Assembly (NCBI RefSeq): GCF_003096415.1
Contig: NZ_QEKH01000003.1
Span: 62,001-126,000, forward strand
Length of the DNA stretch: 64,000 nt
DNA from: Victivallis vadensis
GTDB lineage: Bacteria; Verrucomicrobiota; Lentisphaeria; Victivallales; Victivallaceae
Direction: 5' to 3'
Positions 3,174 to 13,798 of this stretch are shown here, piece after piece (the first letter of the stretch is position 1; each line of letters opens with the position of its first letter). The translations under genes were made by a program, and so were the position numbers. Below the pieces are notes generated by a model. It worked only from the letters and a program-made list of their open reading frames with translations, did not search any database and was not told the DNA's origin.

Positions 3174-3971
3174 ATGAAAAAGAATCTGATCCATGTTACA
3201 TCTCCTGCCGGATCTATCGCGGCCCCGCGCTGCCGGTTTACCCTTATTGAGTTGCTCGTTGTAATAGCGATCATCGCCATTCTCGCGGCGATGCTGCTTC
3301 CTGCGCTGAACAAGGCGCGGGAAAGGGCGCACACGGCTTCCTGCAGCGCCAATCTGAAACAGATCGGCAGCGCCAATCTGTTTTATGCGGGGGATTACCG
3401 TGACTATCTGCCGGTAGGCGAGTACCCGGGAACATTCGGCGGCGACCGGCCGCTGACGCGGTGGCATCAGCGCCTCGCACACCTTTATCTTGCCAACAAC
3501 GCGGCGCTGTTCCGGTGTCCGGGAGCCAGGCCGGACGAGGGATTCAACAGCGAATACAAGGAGAACGGTTCTTATACGACGGCTTCCGGCACTCCGCGTT
3601 CGGATAAGGAGAATTACCGGATCGCCGGCAGGCCCACCTGGGTCACTTATACGGCGGTCGCAACAATTGCGGGAGCATTGAACAGCTGGACCGGAGGAGC
3701 GGAGCAGTACACACCCCGGCGGCTTATCCGGATGAAACGGCCGTCGTTGACGGTATATGCTCTGGACGGCCGGGAGATGCTGGTGCTGGGAAGTGAACTG
3801 ACGCAGGTCGCGGCAGCCCGTTATCCGCAGGTTTACCGCCATAACCGTAGGTCCAACGTCTGTTTTGCGGACGGGCATGCCGGTACGATCCGGATGGGAT
3901 TGAGCTGGGGAAAACTTTCACAGGAATATGTGTTCATCTGGCCCGAAAGTTCCAGGATGAACGACAAATAA
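3174..3971 (+). CDS. Type II secretion/type IV pilin-like pseudopilin
   Basis: A 265-residue protein with a polar leader of about 22 residues ending in arginine, then the prepilin cleavage/methylation segment [17 protein letters not shown] and the helix continuation ending LNKARE. The C-terminal part is a globular head with an H-X9-DG signature ([12 protein letters not shown]), typical of the pilin-like proteins that are strongly expanded in Lentisphaerae and Planctomycetes. A GAAAGGATGG ribosome site precedes the ATG. It lies between two secreted glycoside hydrolase genes (19 bp after the first, 28 bp before the next), so the three are probably co-transcribed. Family knowledge: such proteins are processed by a prepilin peptidase and assemble into pseudopili. 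A role in export or display of the neighbouring hydrolases is inference. Confidence 0.88.
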
Positions 3972-3999: not shown

Positions 4000-6921
4000 G
4001 TGTCGATTTCAATTTCAGGAAAATGGGCGGTTTTGTTCTGTCTTTTGTCATTGCCGGCGGCCGGTGCGTCGGGAGAAGGGACCGTGCGCGAATGGCTTCC
4101 CGGAGCCGGTGCGCCGCCGGCCCGGATTGCGTGGACTCCATCCGGCGGTACGCCGGTGCGGATACAGGAACCGGCGGCACGAGAGAGTGCGGATAAAACG
4201 AAGGTGTGGCGTTTCGACTCCAGGCCTTCCGACAAGGCATTGGCTTATGCCGTGAAACTGGATGGCGTGGAATTGAAACTTGAACACGGCTGGTTTGAGT
4301 TTTCCTACTATCTTCCGGCGGATTCGCGGGTGACCCGGCTGCGTCCCGGCGTGCGGGTGCGGGGCAAAAAACATGTTGCGGCGGATCTGGTTCCGGTCAA
4401 AGGGCGCTGGACCGTCGTACGATGGCCGCTGGACGGGCCGGAAACCGCCGCGATACGGCGCGACGGCGGCAAGTATGCGGAAGCTCTTGAATTGGGTGTA
4501 CTCGCTTCCGGCGGACCGATTGCGCTGGAAATCGGCGGATTTGCAGTGGGTGCCGGCAGCCGGGACCGGGAAGGTATTTATTCCATTCCTCTGACGCCGG
4601 AAACACAAGGAGCCTGGAATGCCGTCACCGGGCTGCCCGGTTTCGCGGGCGTCTGGCCTCCGGGAGGCTTCACACAAAAGCGAACGGCTCCCACTTTACC
4701 GGGGGAGAAGGAGAAGGTGTTCCGGTTTGACGCGAAAGGCAATGCGCTGGCGCTGACCTTCCGCATCGAGGCGCCGCTCGCGGATACATGGCTGGAATTC
4801 GACTACTTCCTGCCGGAAGGCTCTAAAATAAAGTCGGTCAATCCGGGCATCACCGTCCGGGAGTGGAACGGAAAACGGCGTACCCTCCGGCTGCCTCCGG
4901 TGGTCGGAAAGTGGCGGAAGGAGAAGCTCGCGCTGGCGGAGATCATGGGCGGCGATACCTGGCGAAGCGGCGAGGCGGCGACCGCTTCCTCATTTGAAAT
5001 CGGCTTTCTCGGCGAGCCGGAGAGTTCCGTCGCGGTGGAATTCGGCGAGATCCGCCTGCTGCGGGAGCCTGCCGCCTTTGCTCCGCTGGTCCGTCCGCAG
5101 TGGCTGGAGGAATCGGGCAGGCTGAAGCGCACCTTCCATATCGAAGACGCTCCCCGGAAAGGCTGGATCATGGCGCTGGCCGCTCCTTCCTTTACGCTGT
5201 GGGTCAACGGCCGCGAGCTTGGCCGGGGGAAGTTCAACAACTCCGGCGTCTGGACGATGCACGCCGGAAACGGCTGGCCCGTCGCCGCCGAGTGGCCGCT
5301 CGACGGCGTGTTGAAAGCCGGAGAAAACGAGGTCGAAATCGAGATCGCCCCAGGCGGGGCGCGCGGGCTGGTCGCGCTCGGTTGGGAGGAGGATTCCCGG
5401 CGGTGCGTGGTGGTTTCGGATGGAGCGTGGCGGAATGTTTCAGGAGATGCGGTCAAAGTCCGCCCGATCGGGGAGCCGGTGCGGCTCAAGGGGTTGGATA
5501 TTTATCCGGTCAGGCGTCCCGCCGCATGGCTTCCCGAGGTCCGGCGTCCCGACTATGCGGCAGTTCCCGCTTATGCTCCGGCCTGCGAACGGCTCAAGGT
5601 CGCGCCGGAACCGGGGAAATGGGGCACGGTTCAGGAAAACGGCCGCTGGTGGCTGAAAACTCCATCCGGCAAGCCGTTCTTTTTCAACGGCATCCAGACG
5701 GTGGCACGCATCTGCGAAAATTACGGATATTCCGACTGGGCGCGGCGGGCCTATTCCTCCGAAAAGGAGTGGGGCGACGATGCGGCCGCTCTGGCGCAGC
5801 GGCTCGGCTTCAACGGACTGGCGGTCGCGGCCACCGCAGATGCCGCCTTCGCGGCGGGAGCGCGGCGTGGAATGGTCTATTTCACCTATCTGGGGTGCGG
5901 CGACGGCGGCCCGGCTCTGGTGAACCGGCAAGGGCAGCCGCTGCCGGGACTTGCGGACCCGTTCGACGAAAACTGGAAAAGCAGGTTGCGCCGCCGGGCG
6001 GCGGAAGCGGGAAAACGGTGGAACCGCGATCCGGCCTGCATCGGATTTTTCGTGAACAACGAAGCGCATCTGGAAGGAAATCTCGCGGGGCGTTCTTCCT
6101 CGGGTTTCGTTTATTCGGAGGCGTGCGGCCGGGAATTTGTCCGCTGGCTGCGCGAACGCTACCGGAACGACCTGCAAATGCTGAATCTGGCGTGGTTCGG
6201 CAAGGCGGAAGCGGAGTATCTCGGGAGCTTTGAGGAGGTGCTGGTGAAAAAGCCGGACCCGCTGGGCAAAGTTCCTTTCATGGCCGATCCGACCGCCGCC
6301 GCCGCGCTGGCGCAGATCGGCCGCCGCCTCGGCGGAGATGAACGCGACGGCAGGAAGGGGCGCATGCGCAAGGATTTTGACGATTTTGCGGTGCATACGG
6401 TCAAGGTTTATGCCGGTTACGTGCTTAAGACAATGCGTGAATTCATGCCGGATAAACTCATCGGCAGCAACCGTTTCATGGGCGCGTCGACCGAGGCGAT
6501 GCTGGAAGCGTGGAAGGATTACGACCTGATCGCATGGAACTCCTACCCGATGTGGGTCTGGAAGGATGCGACATACACCGGCCGTCAGCTGGCCGAAATC
6601 CGGAAGGCGCACCGGGTCACGGGCAAGCCGGTGATGCTGACCGAATGGGGCGTTCAGGCGCTGGATGTGCGCATGGCGTCGCCGTCGGCGCAGCTGCTGA
6701 CCCAGAAGGAACGCGGCGAGGGCTACGGCAAGGTGGTGAAACAGGTCGTCGAAACCTTTCCCTTCGTCGTCGGGATGGTCAACTTCGGCTATCAGAACCT
6801 GGCGGACAGCGAAGGGCAGGGCTGGGGTGTGGTGGACAATGAGGGGCGGCCCTATCATGACTTCATCTCCGGCATCGTCGCGGCCAACCGATGGCTTGAC
6901 GAATATTTCGTCGGTAAATGA
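4000..6921 (+). CDS. Secreted glycoside hydrolase, GH42/GH-A beta-galactosidase-like
   Basis: GTG start; residues 1-25 form a signal peptide (hydrophobic VLFCLLSLPAAGASG). The first ~520 residues hold two related beta-sandwich modules with LELEHGWFEFSYYLP- and TWLEFDYFLPEG-type segments, then a galactose-binding-like domain. From about residue 540 a TIM barrel follows. The acid/base is probably Glu688 in FFVNNEAH and the nucleophile Glu882 in VMLTEWG, at beta strands 4 and 7 as in clan GH-A beta-galactosidases. The protein ends soon after the barrel. It is the last gene of the hydrolase-pseudopilin-hydrolase group and is followed by a strong hairpin terminator 26 bp downstream. Exact family and substrate are uncertain; GH42- or GH2-related activity on beta-linked galactans or glucans is the likeliest reading. 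Confidence 0.75.
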   Translation: MSISISGKWAVLFCLLSLPAAGASGEGTVREWLPGAGAPPARIAWTPSGGTPVRIQEPAARESADKTKVWRFDSRPSDKALAYAVKLDGVELKLEHGWFEFSYYLPADSRVTRLRPGVRVRGKKHVAADLVPVKGRWTVVRWPLDGPETAAIRRDGGKYAEALELGVLASGGPIALEIGGFAVGAGSRDREGIYSIPLTPETQGAWNAVTGLPGFAGVWPPGGFTQKRTAPTLPGEKEKVFRFDAKGNALALTFRIEAPLADTWLEFDYFLPEGSKIKSVNPGITVREWNGKRRTLRLPPVVGKWRKEKLALAEIMGGDTWRSGEAATASSFEIGFLGEPESSVAVEFGEIRLLREPAAFAPLVRPQWLEESGRLKRTFHIEDAPRKGWIMALAAPSFTLWVNGRELGRGKFNNSGVWTMHAGNGWPVAAEWPLDGVLKAGENEVEIEIAPGGARGLVALGWEEDSRRCVVVSDGAWRNVSGDAVKVRPIGEPVRLKGLDIYPVRRPAAWLPEVRRPDYAAVPAYAPACERLKVAPEPGKWGTVQENGRWWLKTPSGKPFFFNGIQTVARICENYGYSDWARRAYSSEKEWGDDAAALAQRLGFNGLAVAATADAAFAAGARRGMVYFTYLGCGDGGPALVNRQGQPLPGLADPFDENWKSRLRRRAAEAGKRWNRDPACIGFFVNNEAHLEGNLAGRSSSGFVYSEACGREFVRWLRERYRNDLQMLNLAWFGKAEAEYLGSFEEVLVKKPDPLGKVPFMADPTAAAALAQIGRRLGGDERDGRKGRMRKDFDDFAVHTVKVYAGYVLKTMREFMPDKLIGSNRFMGASTEAMLEAWKDYDLIAWNSYPMWVWKDATYTGRQLAEIRKAHRVTGKPVMLTEWGVQALDVRMASPSAQLLTQKERGEGYGKVVKQVVETFPFVVGMVNFGYQNLADSEGQGWGVVDNEGRPYHDFISGIVAANRWLDEYFVGK

Positions 6922-6947: not shown

Positions 6948-6972
6948 GGCTCCGAATTTCGGAGCCTTTTTT
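6948..6972 (+). terminator. Rho-independent terminator after the hydrolase gene
   Basis: GGCTCCGA pairs perfectly with TCGGAGCC (8 bp) around a 3-nt loop and is followed directly by six T. It ends the transcription unit of the first three genes. Confidence 0.9.
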
Positions 6973-7091
6973 ATTGCAACAAGCTGGCATTTCGGAAAAA
7001 TGGGAATATTGTTTGGAATAAGCGGAAATAAGGCTAAGTTTTTTTATCCTGGTCACGTCTTATTCTTCAGTGAAACTCCGGGAGGTCAGGT

Positions 7092-10000
7092 GTGGGATTG
7101 AAATGGATTATGGCGGCGGCGATGCTGCTGGTTGCGACAAACTTTGTCATGGCAGCAGCGGTTCGGGTGGCAGTGGTGGGGGAAGAGGAGACTGTCCGGG
7201 AAATTCGTTCCCGGCTGGAAGCGGAACAGGATATCGTCCTGGCGGAGTGGAAGGATGCTCCGGAGGTTTCCGCCTTGTATGATCCGAAAATTGCCGCGTA
7301 TCCGCTGCCGGAGGCGGATTTTCTGATCGTGGCGGCCAAAGAGCGGCTGGTGGCGGTTCTGAATCTCCGTCACTCCTATCTCGCCGCCGAATTTTCCCCC
7401 GGCCGGGAGCCTGTCGAAACGGCGCAGCGGGTTCTGGAACGCATACGCAAGGCCGCAACTGCGGAACAGAGCGGATACTTCTGGAGTGTGGTGATTGAAG
7501 AACCGCATCGGCTGACTTCGGGTACCGGCGGAGGAAACGCGCCGGAACTTCTTTCGGCAGGGCTGGAGGAGTACTGGTTGAAAGAGCCGTCATGTCTGGT
7601 GATCGATCGGCATGAGCCGGAGAAAAGCTGTGCTGAAGGAGGCTTTTTCCGGTACTGTTTCCCGATTCGGCTCAATAGCTGGGTGGTGAGGCTGCGCGAG
7701 GGAAAGAAAAACGGTTTCTATCTGGAGGCGGCTTCTTTTTTCGGCCGACGGATGTTTGTCGCTTATACGAAGGAAGTACCGGTTACGCAGGAAACCGCGG
7801 TGCAACTGAAGGAGTTTGACGCTGGTCTGAAACTGTTTTTAAAACGGAACGGAGCGGAAAAATCACCGGAACGGCAATCGTATCCGAATACTCTGTCGGG
7901 TTACCGGGATCAATTGGGGAGGCTGCACATTTTTTCCGACCGCTGGTTCGATCTATGGGCGGCGGCGATCAAAAAATATCCCTATTATTCCTGGGGAGGG
8001 GAATTAACCCAGAGAAGCGGTGGCGAACAGGCTGTTGCAAATTCTGCGTATTCCTCCGACCATGCGTTCTCCATGGCCAGAAAATGGTTGAGCGGGATGC
8101 GTGAAATGAGGCTTCGGCATGCAATACCGAAAATGGATCCCACCGGTTTGGTCGCACTCTCATTGCAATGCAATACTTTTCCCAGATTCGGCAAGAACAG
8201 GAAACTTCCCGATATCGATTGGGACGCGATCAAGACATTGGCGGCGGAGGCGCGCCGGGAGTACCGGTTGTGGTATCGGGCACGTTTCGGGCTGAAGTAT
8301 GACCCGGAGCGCGGGCTGCGTACCGTCCCCGAACTGCAGGCGTATTTCCGGGAATTGGAAAATGTGGGGCTGAGAGAACATAACTACTATTCGCTTCAGG
8401 ATTACTATGACGGCCTGTCCGAAGTGATTGCGGAAGAGATCCGGGCTGCCGATGCCTTTCTGACGGTGGAGGATACTCCGGAACGGCAGCGCGGAATTCC
8501 GCCGATCGGCCAATTCATTCTGAGTGAAAGTTTTTCGACAAATACGCAGACGGCTGTTCCGGAGCGGCGGATACTCTACGAGCAGATTGAAGCCGCGCAG
8601 CGTTCAAAATCCAAACTGATCCGCCAGCTCGGCTGCTTCTGGCAACTTCACAGAGAACAGGATAAAGTGGAATACCGTCCCGATGAATCACTGAAATTAT
8701 TCCGGGAATATTGCCGGCAGGTAAAGGAAATCTACGGCAGGGAAGCCCCCTATCTGGCTGTGGTGAATAATAAATCGAAAATAAAAGGGGGGAATTTTTC
8801 AATTGTGCAGAAGAAATTTAAGGCGATTGCGGCTGAAGTATTCGGCGATGATACGGATTTCCTGCCGTCAGGACGGGAATTATATGAATTACGCGGTTTG
8901 GGGAGAGTACCGCCCCGGCAAGTGGAAAAATTCCTGCCGGTGATCAGGGAGCGCATGGATTTCTATCTGACTTCAGCAGCCGGTAAGGAACTGCAGGCCA
9001 TTTTCAACAACATGGCTTGGGAGGGAGATGATTATTTCCTGCAGCATGATGCAAAGGAACGGCGGGAGCTGATTGAGAGATTCAATTCAAAGGTTGAACT
9101 TTCAACCCCGGTTCCGTGGGGTGACCGGGGCGTAATTCTGAATTCCATTATGCGGGGAGGGATGATCTATCTGGTGGGGTTCCGGGAACGGCAGCAGTTG
9201 ATAACACTGTACCGGTTCAATCCGGAAAGCAGACAACTGGATTGTTGTGCCTCGTCTAAAGTGGATCTGGAGCGTGCCGGCCGTTTCGGCAGGGGGATTG
9301 TGGATACTTGCGGCATGTTTGATGTGGAAGGGGATTATGCCGTCTGGATGAGAGAAAAAGAGGGAGACGGTTTCCGCCCGGATGGCAATGTGTTTCGTCC
9401 CGGAATTCCGAAGGAAAGGGTTCATGTTTTTGATTTGAAGGGGAAAAAAGCATGGACTCTTACGGACTTTCCACACAATGGCCTGAGGTCAGTCGCGTTG
9501 CTCGGCGGCAAACTCTATATTGCACTGAATTCCGCAAACAATACGAATTCCATGCTGGTTCGTTGCGATTTGTCCGGAGATAACCGGGAAGTCCTTTTCG
9601 ATACCGGCCGGGAGGAAGAACAGAACAGTTTCGATGCACGCGACCCGTTCTCACGTTTTCTGCTGAGGAGCAACCCTTTTCGCGGGCGGCTGCTGCTGTT
9701 TGGAGACTCCGTATTGTATGAGATGGATCCGAATACCATGGAGGCTTCTGAAATTTCCGATGAAACCCTTGGCGGAAACAGAACGATTGTGGGTGATGAA
9801 ACACTCTATATTCCCGGAATGGATTGCCGTTATTTAACTTATAATCTGAAATCCGGAAAATTGCAGCGTGTGGCGGTTTTCGATTGCAGTTCCACGGGCG
9901 TAAAAGAGCAGGATTTGCTTCCGTATCAATGGCGCCTGAAGTTCAATTACTCTTATGCGGGGATTCCTGCGCGTGCACTGGCATTTGTTCTGCAGGGGAA

Positions 10001-10184
10001 TCGGATGCTCCAGCCGAGAGAACAGATGGTGCTGATTGATCTCGATCATATTGAACAGTCACCGCCAGTGCTGGTGCCGCGACAGTTCAATGCCTCGCCG
10101 GCGGACGCCTATCCGGCAAAAGACGGAAAATCCTTCTGGCTGGTTTTGCCGGAGGGAAAAATTCAGTTGTTGACTCCCAGGTGA
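7092..10184 (+). CDS. Secreted protein with CsgG/FlgO-like N-terminal domain and C-terminal beta-propeller
   Basis: GTG start with GGGAGG six bases upstream. Residues 1-23 are a signal peptide. Residues ~24-260 (VRVAVVGEEETVREI..., ADFLIVAAKERLVAVLNLRHSY) resemble residues ~25-270 of the next gene product and, loosely, the CsgG/FlgO group of outer-membrane or surface proteins. The middle (~260-660) is mostly helical and unrecognised. The last ~350 residues show repeated hydrophobic strands of the kind MIYLVGF, LYIALNSANN, VLYEMDPNTMEA, LYIPGMDCRYL, which suggest a beta-propeller. The stop overlaps the next gene region, so the two are co-transcribed. No enzyme motif was found. Codon third positions look less GC-rich than in flanking genes, so recent transfer or low expression is possible. 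Function unknown. Confidence 0.6.
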   Translation: MGLKWIMAAAMLLVATNFVMAAAVRVAVVGEEETVREIRSRLEAEQDIVLAEWKDAPEVSALYDPKIAAYPLPEADFLIVAAKERLVAVLNLRHSYLAAEFSPGREPVETAQRVLERIRKAATAEQSGYFWSVVIEEPHRLTSGTGGGNAPELLSAGLEEYWLKEPSCLVIDRHEPEKSCAEGGFFRYCFPIRLNSWVVRLREGKKNGFYLEAASFFGRRMFVAYTKEVPVTQETAVQLKEFDAGLKLFLKRNGAEKSPERQSYPNTLSGYRDQLGRLHIFSDRWFDLWAAAIKKYPYYSWGGELTQRSGGEQAVANSAYSSDHAFSMARKWLSGMREMRLRHAIPKMDPTGLVALSLQCNTFPRFGKNRKLPDIDWDAIKTLAAEARREYRLWYRARFGLKYDPERGLRTVPELQAYFRELENVGLREHNYYSLQDYYDGLSEVIAEEIRAADAFLTVEDTPERQRGIPPIGQFILSESFSTNTQTAVPERRILYEQIEAAQRSKSKLIRQLGCFWQLHREQDKVEYRPDESLKLFREYCRQVKEIYGREAPYLAVVNNKSKIKGGNFSIVQKKFKAIAAEVFGDDTDFLPSGRELYELRGLGRVPPRQVEKFLPVIRERMDFYLTSAAGKELQAIFNNMAWEGDDYFLQHDAKERRELIERFNSKVELSTPVPWGDRGVILNSIMRGGMIYLVGFRERQQLITLYRFNPESRQLDCCASSKVDLERAGRFGRGIVDTCGMFDVEGDYAVWMREKEGDGFRPDGNVFRPGIPKERVHVFDLKGKKAWTLTDFPHNGLRSVALLGGKLYIALNSANNTNSMLVRCDLSGDNREVLFDTGREEEQNSFDARDPFSRFLLRSNPFRGRLLLFGDSVLYEMDPNTMEASEISDETLGGNRTIVGDETLYIPGMDCRYLTYNLKSGKLQRVAVFDCSSTGVKEQDLLPYQWRLKFNYSYAGIPARALAFVLQGNRMLQPREQMVLIDLDHIEQSPPVLVPRQFNASPADAYPAKDGKSFWLVLPEGKIQLLTPR

Positions 10185-10189
10185 GCGGC

Positions 10190-12022
10190 ATGAAGCATTC
10201 TGTGAAACAACTGTTGGTGATTGTTGTGTCAGCCGGACTTTGGAGTTCGGCTGTCGCCGAAGAACTGCCCAAAGTGGCGATTGTGGGGGATTCCGCACTT
10301 GTGGATCTGGTGTATGCCCAGTTGAGTGCGGAAGAGAATTTCGAGTTGCTGGAGCGCGATAAGATCCGGCTGATTCTTAAGGAGCGGAAGTTGGCGGCCT
10401 GGAACAGTTCCGAGTTGATTCGGCAAATTCCGCATGCGGATATCTTAGTGGCGTTTGAACCGGCTAATGCTGCGGCGAAACGTGTGATCATCTTCAATGT
10501 CCGGAACAGCTATAGGATGGCGGATTTCCCGTTGCCCGACAATACGGAACAGGCTGCCGTTGCCACCGTTGCCCGACTGCGAAAAAGCATGACCGGTCAA
10601 ATCCGCCCGGCGACGCTGACCCTGGGGATTGTCCGGATCGTGGATTCAGGGGTGCCGCAGCGCTATCAGGGGAAAATCGACGAGTTTGCCTCTGCTTTGG
10701 AACAAGCCATGGGAAAAGCCGAATGGATTGTTGTTCTGGAACGGAATCATTTGGAACAAGTCAACCGGGAGCGGGAAATTTCCCGGGAACATTTCCCGTT
10801 GACTCCGTCTGCCTGCCTGATCGGATTGGAATTTACGCCGGGAAAACGCCCGGAAATCACACATTGTACCGTGCGGCTGATTGACCGGAATGGCAAAGTT
10901 TTGGAAAAAATCCATGCGGAGAATGTGTTTGAGGATATTCCTGAGAGCGTGCGCAAACTGATCCCTGTGATTCAGCAGAAAGCACTGAAAGTTGTCGAGG
11001 AGAAAAATCGTGCAATCCAAGCTGGAGCCAGAACGAAAGCAGCAGTTGCCGAACATGAACAGCAGGAAGAAGCGAAACGCTACTATGAAACCTATCTGAG
11101 GCTCTGTTCCAGCAGATATCAGGAAGCGCGGGAGGCTTTGGAGGCTGCGATTGCTCTGGCCCCGGACAATCAGAGGTATCGCGCTGCACATCTCAGGCTC
11201 GGCTGGGAGAAAAGTCCGGAAGATCCGGCTGAATACCTTCAATATCAACAGGAACGTCTGGAAGAAATGCGGCGTTATGAGCGCAATACGAAAGGCCAAT
11301 CGTATTTTGCTTCGGATTCGTATTTCCCGTTGTTTGCCCGGCCTTTTCCGAAAGAATTCAACAGGGAACGGGAATATGTGGGCAACCGAAACCCCACAGA
11401 GGCGGAGTGGCTGGCGGAGATGAATCTGGCGGAGGAAGTTCGGGAATTTTTCTGGAAAGCCGGTATGACGCGTCTGAAAGGGACAGAGCCGGCAAATCTG
11501 TGTGAACTCTATTACTATCTCGGCCTGATTGAGCGTATTTATCTGGCAGAGCAGCTTTATGTGGATTTTGAATCTTACAAGCTGGCGGTCAGAAAGGGGG
11601 TTCGGATGGGAATTGAGGCAGTTGAACGTTATGTGAACCAATATGGGCACGCAGAAACGATGAAACAACGCAGGAAGTTTGAGAATCTCGCCTGCCCGCT
11701 ATATGACCGGAAGTTATTCGAAGCGGATCCGGAAGGCGCTGTTTCAACCCTTGAAATGGCGAAACGCTCGCCGCAGCAGGCGATCCGGAAATATGCGATG
11801 GTACTGGAATTTGCGTGGCGTATCAGGCAACTCTCCCCCGATACTCCGGAGAGTTACCGGCGTGTTGTGGAAGCATGTTATCTGGAATACCGCAAGCAAT
11901 TTAAACAGAATCCAAATTTATTTCCCTGGATCTCTGGTATGCCACAGATTCAGAGAGAAGTCCTGGAGCGAATCCTGGAAGAAATGGAAGAAAAATTCTG
12001 GTATCTTGCTCCTGAACGGTAA
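10190..12022 (+). CDS. Secreted CsgG/FlgO-like protein with helical-repeat C-terminus
   Basis: An upstream GTG at 10181 overlaps the previous stop, but the ATG at 10190 has an AGGTGAG ribosome site at good spacing, so I chose it. An N-terminal signal peptide (LLVIVVSAGLWSSAVA) is followed by two segments typical of CsgG-like proteins, FELLERDKIRLILKERKL and WIVVLERNHLEQVNRERE, in a domain of about 270 residues. The rest is alpha-helical, with a TPR-like patch (YQEAREALEAAIALAPDN) near residue 310. It shares its N-terminal pattern with the preceding gene product, including AD(I/F)L(I/V)..(N)(V/L)R.SY. CsgG proteins form or assist outer-membrane export channels; whether this one does is inference. 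It is probably lipid-free, as no lipobox Cys is present. Confidence 0.6.
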   Translation: MKHSVKQLLVIVVSAGLWSSAVAEELPKVAIVGDSALVDLVYAQLSAEENFELLERDKIRLILKERKLAAWNSSELIRQIPHADILVAFEPANAAAKRVIIFNVRNSYRMADFPLPDNTEQAAVATVARLRKSMTGQIRPATLTLGIVRIVDSGVPQRYQGKIDEFASALEQAMGKAEWIVVLERNHLEQVNREREISREHFPLTPSACLIGLEFTPGKRPEITHCTVRLIDRNGKVLEKIHAENVFEDIPESVRKLIPVIQQKALKVVEEKNRAIQAGARTKAAVAEHEQQEEAKRYYETYLRLCSSRYQEAREALEAAIALAPDNQRYRAAHLRLGWEKSPEDPAEYLQYQQERLEEMRRYERNTKGQSYFASDSYFPLFARPFPKEFNREREYVGNRNPTEAEWLAEMNLAEEVREFFWKAGMTRLKGTEPANLCELYYYLGLIERIYLAEQLYVDFESYKLAVRKGVRMGIEAVERYVNQYGHAETMKQRRKFENLACPLYDRKLFEADPEGAVSTLEMAKRSPQQAIRKYAMVLEFAWRIRQLSPDTPESYRRVVEACYLEYRKQFKQNPNLFPWISGMPQIQREVLERILEEMEEKFWYLAPER

Positions 12023-13235: not shown

Positions 13236-13596
13236 TCAGCCGATGAAATCCAGCTCCGTTTCAAGCATGGTTGGGCGGCTGAAGTCGAAGCTGCGCACTT
13301 CCCGCCGTCCATCCCGCCAGTGGATCGTCAGTTCGAGCACGCCGGCGCCACGGAGGCGCTCGGTGCGGCGGAAAGCTCCGGCACCGGGAAAGAGGCGCGG
13401 GCCGGGGCGTTCCACTGGCCGCTGTACTCTCCGCCGGGGCCTTTGACCCGGACACCGCAGAGTTCGGCAAGATCGCCGCCGTTCCACAAGGCGAGGGCGT
13501 TCCATTCGCCTCATTTCCGAATTCTTCAAAAACACCGCATCCGGTCAACGTACCGACTGCCGCCAAAGCGGTAAAGAGAAGATAAATTTTTTTCAT
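13236..13596 (-). pseudogene. Frameshifted small lipoprotein gene
   Basis: An ATG at 13596 with AAAGGA eight bases upstream opens a lipoprotein signal (MKKIYLLFTALAAVGTLTGC, lipobox LTGC). After FEEFGNEA the sensible reading jumps frame to NALALWNGGDLAELCGVRVK and on to SGQWNAPARASFPVPE, then jumps again to GAGVLELTIHWRDGRREVRS and ends at 13236. Joined, the three pieces give a plausible ~115-residue lipoprotein; read singly, each frame degenerates into Arg/Pro-rich sequence. The shifts are near 13503 and 13370. This is either a decayed gene or two sequencing errors. The product is not a family I recognise. Confidence 0.55.
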
Positions 13597-13798
13597 GACT
13601 ATCAATCCTTTTTATTTTACGTTCCAGAAAATCACGAGCGGCGGCTTCCGCACGTCGTTCCTCCGTGATTTTCGCTCCGCTTTCATCCCGCAGGATCATT
13701 GCCTTGCGTTTGTGATCCTTCGTCGTATACTGGAGCAAGTAGACTCCATTTTCTTTATATACCCGTCCAGTTCCTCGTACACGTCGTTTCTGCTTCAT
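13526..13798 (-). pseudogene. Tyrosine-integrase N-terminal fragment
   Basis: Starts with a strong GGAGGT site five bases before the ATG. Residues 1-70 (GTGRVYKENGVYLLQYTTKDHKRK..., ERRAEAAARDFLERKI) look like the N-terminal arm-binding and early core-binding part of phage-type tyrosine recombinases. After about residue 70 the frame runs into the start of the frameshifted lipoprotein gene and stops, so the catalytic domain with its R-H-R-Y residues is absent. The product cannot be an active recombinase. It suggests that a mobile element once inserted here and was largely deleted. Confidence 0.5.

Follow-up and report, generated by a model that had tools for sequence, protein, structure and literature searches.

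TolB, FlgT, LpoB and PelC are envelope scaffolds or components of rings, and several envelope proteins of the FlgT, LpoB and PelC type form periplasmic rings or scaffolds. TolB, of the Tol-Pal system, carries a six-bladed PD40-type propeller directly after a single N-terminal domain, while CsgG (PF03783) is the curli export channel. Where extracytoplasmic function (ECF) sigma factors are autoregulated, the promoter element is usually placed before the sigma gene itself. Described here are two adjoining genes, termed P1 and P2, in a 64,000-nucleotide stretch of the Victivallis vadensis genome (contig NZ_QEKH01000003.1, positions 62,001 to 126,000, forward strand). This whole stretch is called the window, and coordinates are those of the window. 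Both genes belong to a phylum-wide family of TolB/CsgG-fold proteins, and P1 is preceded by a promoter-like element that is also found before the ECF sigma operon of the same genome.

7092..10184, + strand: P1, 1030 amino acids, divergent full-length family member (open reading frame translation, family profile, model)
10181..12022, + strand: P2, 613 amino acids, family member without propeller (open reading frame translation, Pfam, family profile, model)
7034..7062, + strand: CTAAG-N17-CGTCTTA, exact match, 29 bases before the P1 start and downstream of a terminator-like hairpin

With somewhat more confidence than doubt, P1-P2 is read here as a satellite of an envelope regulon governed by an ECF sigma factor, in which P2 supplies assembly domains and P1 a propeller to a TolB/FlgT-like maintenance or stress scaffold. 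The ECF sigma factor encoded on another contig (C34) would turn on the pair via the element at 7034-7062. P2, whose assembly domains are intact, would probably dock with the module's further TolB/CsgG-fold proteins; P1, with degenerate assembly domains and an intact propeller, would probably serve as a binding head, and the two proteins may bind each other. The first-pass annotation had considered a possible new surface complex. On the present reading, the pair would be an addition, particular to the species, to a scaffold that serves envelope maintenance or stress in the manner of TolB or FlgT, and not a CsgG export pore. An envelope-maintenance module is suggested because the fold relatives are envelope scaffolds and rings and because the unit would be under sigma control.

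The promoter-like element before P1 has exactly the same boxes and spacing as the one that precedes the ECF sigma operon of this genome. More generally, the upstream regions of sigma genes have CTAAGA(A) and CGTCTTA in common at a spacing of 16-17 bases. When one mismatch at most is allowed, the element is found upstream of 10 of the 28 sigma genes, against 2 of the 391 unrelated genes and none of the 580 shuffled upstream regions. The 5.2 Mb V. vadensis genome has four exact copies, which are situated before P1, before the sigma operon, in coding sequence upstream of a CsgG-like gene and before the gene of an 827-amino-acid lipoprotein (contig C30). There are 27 exact matches in 61 genomes, and 19 of these precede sigma, family, CsgG-like or P748 genes; the figure is 15 of 23 when four coding-embedded CsgG sites are left out. 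Within the genus, the element is present in all five genomes that have the family (V. vadensis included) and in none of the four that lack it by P2 search. Distant members of the phylum display a drifted form, CAAAGAT-N-CGTCTAA, upstream of sigma genes and family genes alike (L102, L092, L088, L045, L100), so that sigma factor and promoter appear to have evolved together. By analogy with the autoregulated layout, the C34 sigma factor would be expected to read the element, which stands before its own gene. The element is partly palindromic (TAAGA/TCTTA), and a dimeric regulator might also be its reader.

The 827-amino-acid lipoprotein (LAGGC) is encoded at L142:7120-9603 on the minus strand (genome G000, contig C30) and contains many WGVFPLAW...FxLAGPVWW repeats. 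The exact element lies 14 bases before its start, and a relative is found near a family operon in L098. It is likely a further member of the regulon.

Gene neighbourhoods were counted for 56 family loci over a distance of 5 kb. Of these loci, 24 have an ECF sigma gene near the family gene and 33 a conserved CsgG-like protein of 300 amino acids. Present less often are an anti-sigma-like protein for which a single membrane helix is predicted (11 loci) and an uncharacterized NLWSGR protein (13). In 21 loci, the family gene has at least one further family gene beside it. The V. vadensis genome has just 10 matches to sigma-70 region 2 in 5.2 Mb, so that about 1.5 sigma-bearing loci are estimated to be expected by chance. 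Its own operon on C34 encodes a sigma factor, an anti-sigma-like protein, a 1025-amino-acid family member, a 758-amino-acid protein and a 310-amino-acid CsgG-like protein. As in known ECF sigma/anti-sigma regulons, the sigma factor has a membrane partner of one helix, and a two-box element stands before the sigma gene as well as before unlinked genes; unlike in those regulons, the putative targets encode TolB/CsgG-fold proteins.

The sizeable predicted extracytoplasmic part of the anti-sigma-like protein, together with the co-encoding of family genes with sigma and anti-sigma-like genes, could also mean that P1-P2 does the sensing for the sigma system. The pair would then have no structural role, but the binding state of a periplasmic scaffold would be reported to the anti-sigma-like protein and fed back on the ECF sigma factor. 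This is rather unlikely, as the pair in the window is an orphan, species-specific satellite and no physical link connects it to the anti-sigma-like protein.

The family itself, of about 1000 amino acids, combines tandem TolB-N/CsgG-fold domains with a helical arm, to which a beta-propeller is often added, and is apparently undescribed; the first-pass annotation had likewise recognized no named family, and P1 matched none in a Pfam scan. A search of 60 relatives with P2 gave matches in 13 other genomes, mostly within reading frames of about 1000 codons. A profile was built from 16 members outside the window, with 2500 shuffled sequences as control (at most 6 bits). It matches P2 with 243 bits over profile positions 3-533 and P1 with 87.5 bits, mainly over positions 423-1024, the C-terminal half. 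The P1 N-terminus reaches the profile weakly (hhalign P 1.2e-5). P2 therefore retains the assembly half but has lost its propeller, and P1 retains the propeller while its N-terminal domains degenerate. Jackhmmer scores of P1 were discarded as proof, since P1 was itself inside the iteration, and the 16-member profile served as the clean test. P1 is too divergent for single-sequence searches, and none of its relatives appeared in a single-protein scan of genome contigs or in a sequence search of the 60 relatives; profiles are required.

In a sample of the phylum, 92 of 388 genomes were matched, many of the weaker ones solely via CsgG-like proteins. Full-length members are present in many genomes; relatives include those of Oligosphaera ethanolica DSM 24202 and of a Victivallaceae genome, the family to which V. 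vadensis belongs. The gene is also split in some relatives into N-terminal genes (about 270-300 or 530 amino acids) and C-terminal genes (about 400-800 amino acids), so that the assembly part and the propeller part can be separate polypeptides. This division into tandem-domain and propeller genes recurs in L135, L132, L134, L128, L098 and L113.

As judged by their sequences, P1 and P2 are divergent paralogs within this one phylum-wide family, and the pair is a lineage- or species-specific satellite of it. The N-termini, proposed earlier to be related, are 25% identical over 220 residues (BLASTP, E 8e-7), and the motifs that had been quoted are present (ADFLIV/ADILVA and NLRHSY/NVRNSY). P1 and P2 may be each other's closest relatives, as they are grouped in 56% of bootstrap trees. 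The very long branch of P1, the loss of a hallmark motif in P1 and the absence from same-genus genomes might be taken to mean a decaying duplicate pair of little function, with P1 losing its N-terminal domains and P2 having lost the propeller. Such decay is very improbable, however, since both frames are intact with coding-like codon use over 4.9 kb and the ribosome sites, translational coupling and exact promoter-like element are retained.

P2 is the better-preserved member in its N-terminal half. The model has two tandem domains (residues 28-136 and 143-243), each with the order beta-alpha-beta-alpha-beta-beta-beta, followed by a helix at residues 250-305; the rest of the protein is a helical repeat.

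10262..10603, + strand: P2 first TolB-N-like domain (structural comparison; Pfam CsgG stretch)
10610..11005, + strand: P2 second domain, same fold, without the CsgG transmembrane hairpins (structural comparison, model)
11042..12004, + strand: P2 alpha-helical repeat with TPR-like start (weak TPR matches, model, structural comparison)

Domain 1 (residues 25-138) superimposes on TolB (7mx5_B) with a Z score of 10.7 and a root-mean-square deviation of 3.1 over 105 residues, and matches LpoB with Z 8.1. Domain 2 matches FlgT (Z 10.1), TolB (9.5), CsgG (8.7) and PelC (7.9). P2 also exceeds the Pfam CsgG cut-off in two stretches (36 bits against 20.8). A fold of the CsgG/FlgO superfamily, as had been proposed, is thus present in P2, and the predicted TPR-like helical part is borne out by the weak TPR matches and the modeled repeat. 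The helical linker of about 45 residues in the first-pass annotation stands in P2 as the long helix at 250-305 of the model. What had been taken for a single CsgG half consists of two tandem domains, closest to TolB-N and FlgT and very degenerate in P1. P2 has the core fold of FlgT/FlgO, LpoB, PelC and PqiC-type envelope proteins, but unlike these the pair adds a helical repeat and a propeller, and neither P1 nor P2 has a Pfam match to any of these families, FlgO and FlgT included. Sequence searches of the PDB gave no useful match.

The Pfam score, the CsgG fold match and the CsgG-like 300-amino-acid protein beside family genes elsewhere would fit a further possibility, that P1-P2 is part of a CsgG-type outer-membrane export channel; a resemblance of the CsgG half to export or anchoring proteins had been noted earlier. 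Over the 125 residues aligned with CsgG, domain 2 has 129 residues where CsgG has 204 (48-251), and its strands are just 7-10 residues long in the model, with a predicted local distance difference test (pLDDT) score of 82-92. The hairpins that form the CsgG membrane barrel are therefore missing from P2, and an export pore is unsupported. Unlike CsgG, with which P2 has the core fold in common, the two proteins have tandem domains, other partners and no lipobox, there being no cysteine in either signal region that could be lipidated. TolB and FlgT fit P2 better than CsgG does, and the match of the 300-amino-acid partner to the CsgG model (210 positions) is confined to positions 10-99. The export channel is the least probable of the readings considered here.

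P1 has the architecture of a full-length family member.

7161..7469, + strand: P1 first TolB-N/CsgG-like domain, degenerate, hallmark LxER..L....ER lost (alignment to P2, hhalign P 1.2e-5, element order in the model)
7482..7763, + strand: P1 second TolB-N/CsgG-like domain, degenerate (alignment to P2, model of low confidence)
7791..9083, + strand: P1 alpha-helical middle, residues 231-661 (model)
9084..10181, + strand: P1 C-terminal WD40-type beta-propeller, residues 662-1027 (model, structural comparison, family profile)

The propeller, noted in the first annotation and WD40-type by model, has a Z score of 18.4 over 282 residues; propeller matches fill the structural match list of P1. In the profile comparison it shows homology to the C-terminal portion of family members (E 3e-22). 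The secondary-structure order at the P1 N-terminus is the same as that of P2, at lower model confidence. The TolB/CsgG-type fold of this region, which is predicted from the alignment to P2 and the order of elements, is less secure than the folds of the other domains. In resemblance to TolB, P1 and the full-length family have a C-terminal propeller, P2 domain 1 has the N-terminal alpha/beta fold and the proteins are exported. They are unlike TolB in the two tandem N-terminal domains, the helical arm of several hundred residues (about 430 in P1), the WD40-type propeller of P1 without a Pfam match, the absence of a propeller from P2 and the ECF sigma neighbourhood.

Several observations weigh against the assignment of P1-P2 to a sigma-controlled scaffold. 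In the window, the pair is an orphan, with no sigma, anti-sigma-like or CsgG-like neighbour. The element before P1 carries TT where 11 of 12 reference sites carry AA. Matches upstream of CsgG-like genes, mostly 158 nt upstream, were rejected as promoters, as they lie inside conserved coding sequence (AKxPGxLSV). The N-terminal branch of P1 is extremely long, at about 5 changes per column in the tree, and its N-terminal domains may have lost their function. The search did not find P1 in eight genomes of the same genus, which means that the module as such can do without the pair. The structural models were built from 23 sequences, with pLDDT scores of 62 for P1 and a mean of 71 for P2.

As to the 158-nt sites, the sequence is exactly 158 nt before the CsgG-like gene in L012 (gene at 4745-5677), L036, L037 and L082. 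Coding constraint alone could explain these sites, because the gene in front is conserved at its 3' coding end, where they lie.

P1 and P2 are codirectional and overlap by 4 bases. P1 starts with GTG preceded by GGGAGGT, and the likelier start of P2 is the ATG at 10190 with AGGTGA in front. Both products have Sec-type signal peptides. The pair is translationally coupled, and the proteins are exported and probably periplasmic. A hairpin is situated between P1 and the upstream gene.

6948..6966, + strand: intrinsic-terminator-like hairpin, 8 bp stem followed by TTTTTT, between the GH42-like gene and P1 (consensus match only)

The flanking genes encode GH42-like, DUF1559, CBM9-like and Abhydrolase_3 proteins (Pfam), of which the GH42-like and CBM9-like products are secreted; curli genes are absent from the neighbours by Pfam scan. 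With secreted GH42-like and CBM9-like proteins and an acetyl-esterase-like Abhydrolase_3 protein alongside, the pair might serve carbohydrate use, for instance by forming a complex at the cell surface in which the propeller binds glycans. This is unlikely: the hairpin and the pair's own promoter-like element isolate the P1-P2 unit from the upstream GH42-like gene, and relatives adjoin sigma, anti-sigma and CsgG-like genes. Elsewhere in the window, a DUF1559 pseudopilin-like protein (PF07596) adjoins the large secreted GH42-like protein (3174-3971 and 4000-6921). A 90-amino-acid reading frame at 13526-13798 on the minus strand resembles by eye the N-terminal part of a tyrosine integrase (VYKENGVYLLQYTTKDHKRK) and is perhaps a remnant.

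No description of a system joining an ECF sigma factor with TolB/CsgG-fold proteins was found in the literature searched, including that on Lentisphaerae, Planctomycetes and Verrucomicrobia. The family and the putative regulon are real and well defined, and apparently undescribed. More tentatively, they may represent an ECF-sigma-controlled envelope system present throughout the phylum and made almost exclusively of TolB/CsgG-fold proteins, in which the conserved 300-amino-acid tandem-domain protein and variable giant helical-arm/propeller relatives build a periplasmic ring or scaffold, and P1-P2 would be a lineage-specific, split-function extension recruited via the sigma promoter. An orphan gene pair is here tied to a distant operon by sequence alone. 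Of interest is that the canonical operon is present in a cultured relative, O. ethanolica DSM 24202. The sigma/anti-sigma pair, the precise promoter-like element and the TolB-type-plus-propeller family offer a testable handle on envelope biology in a little-characterized phylum.

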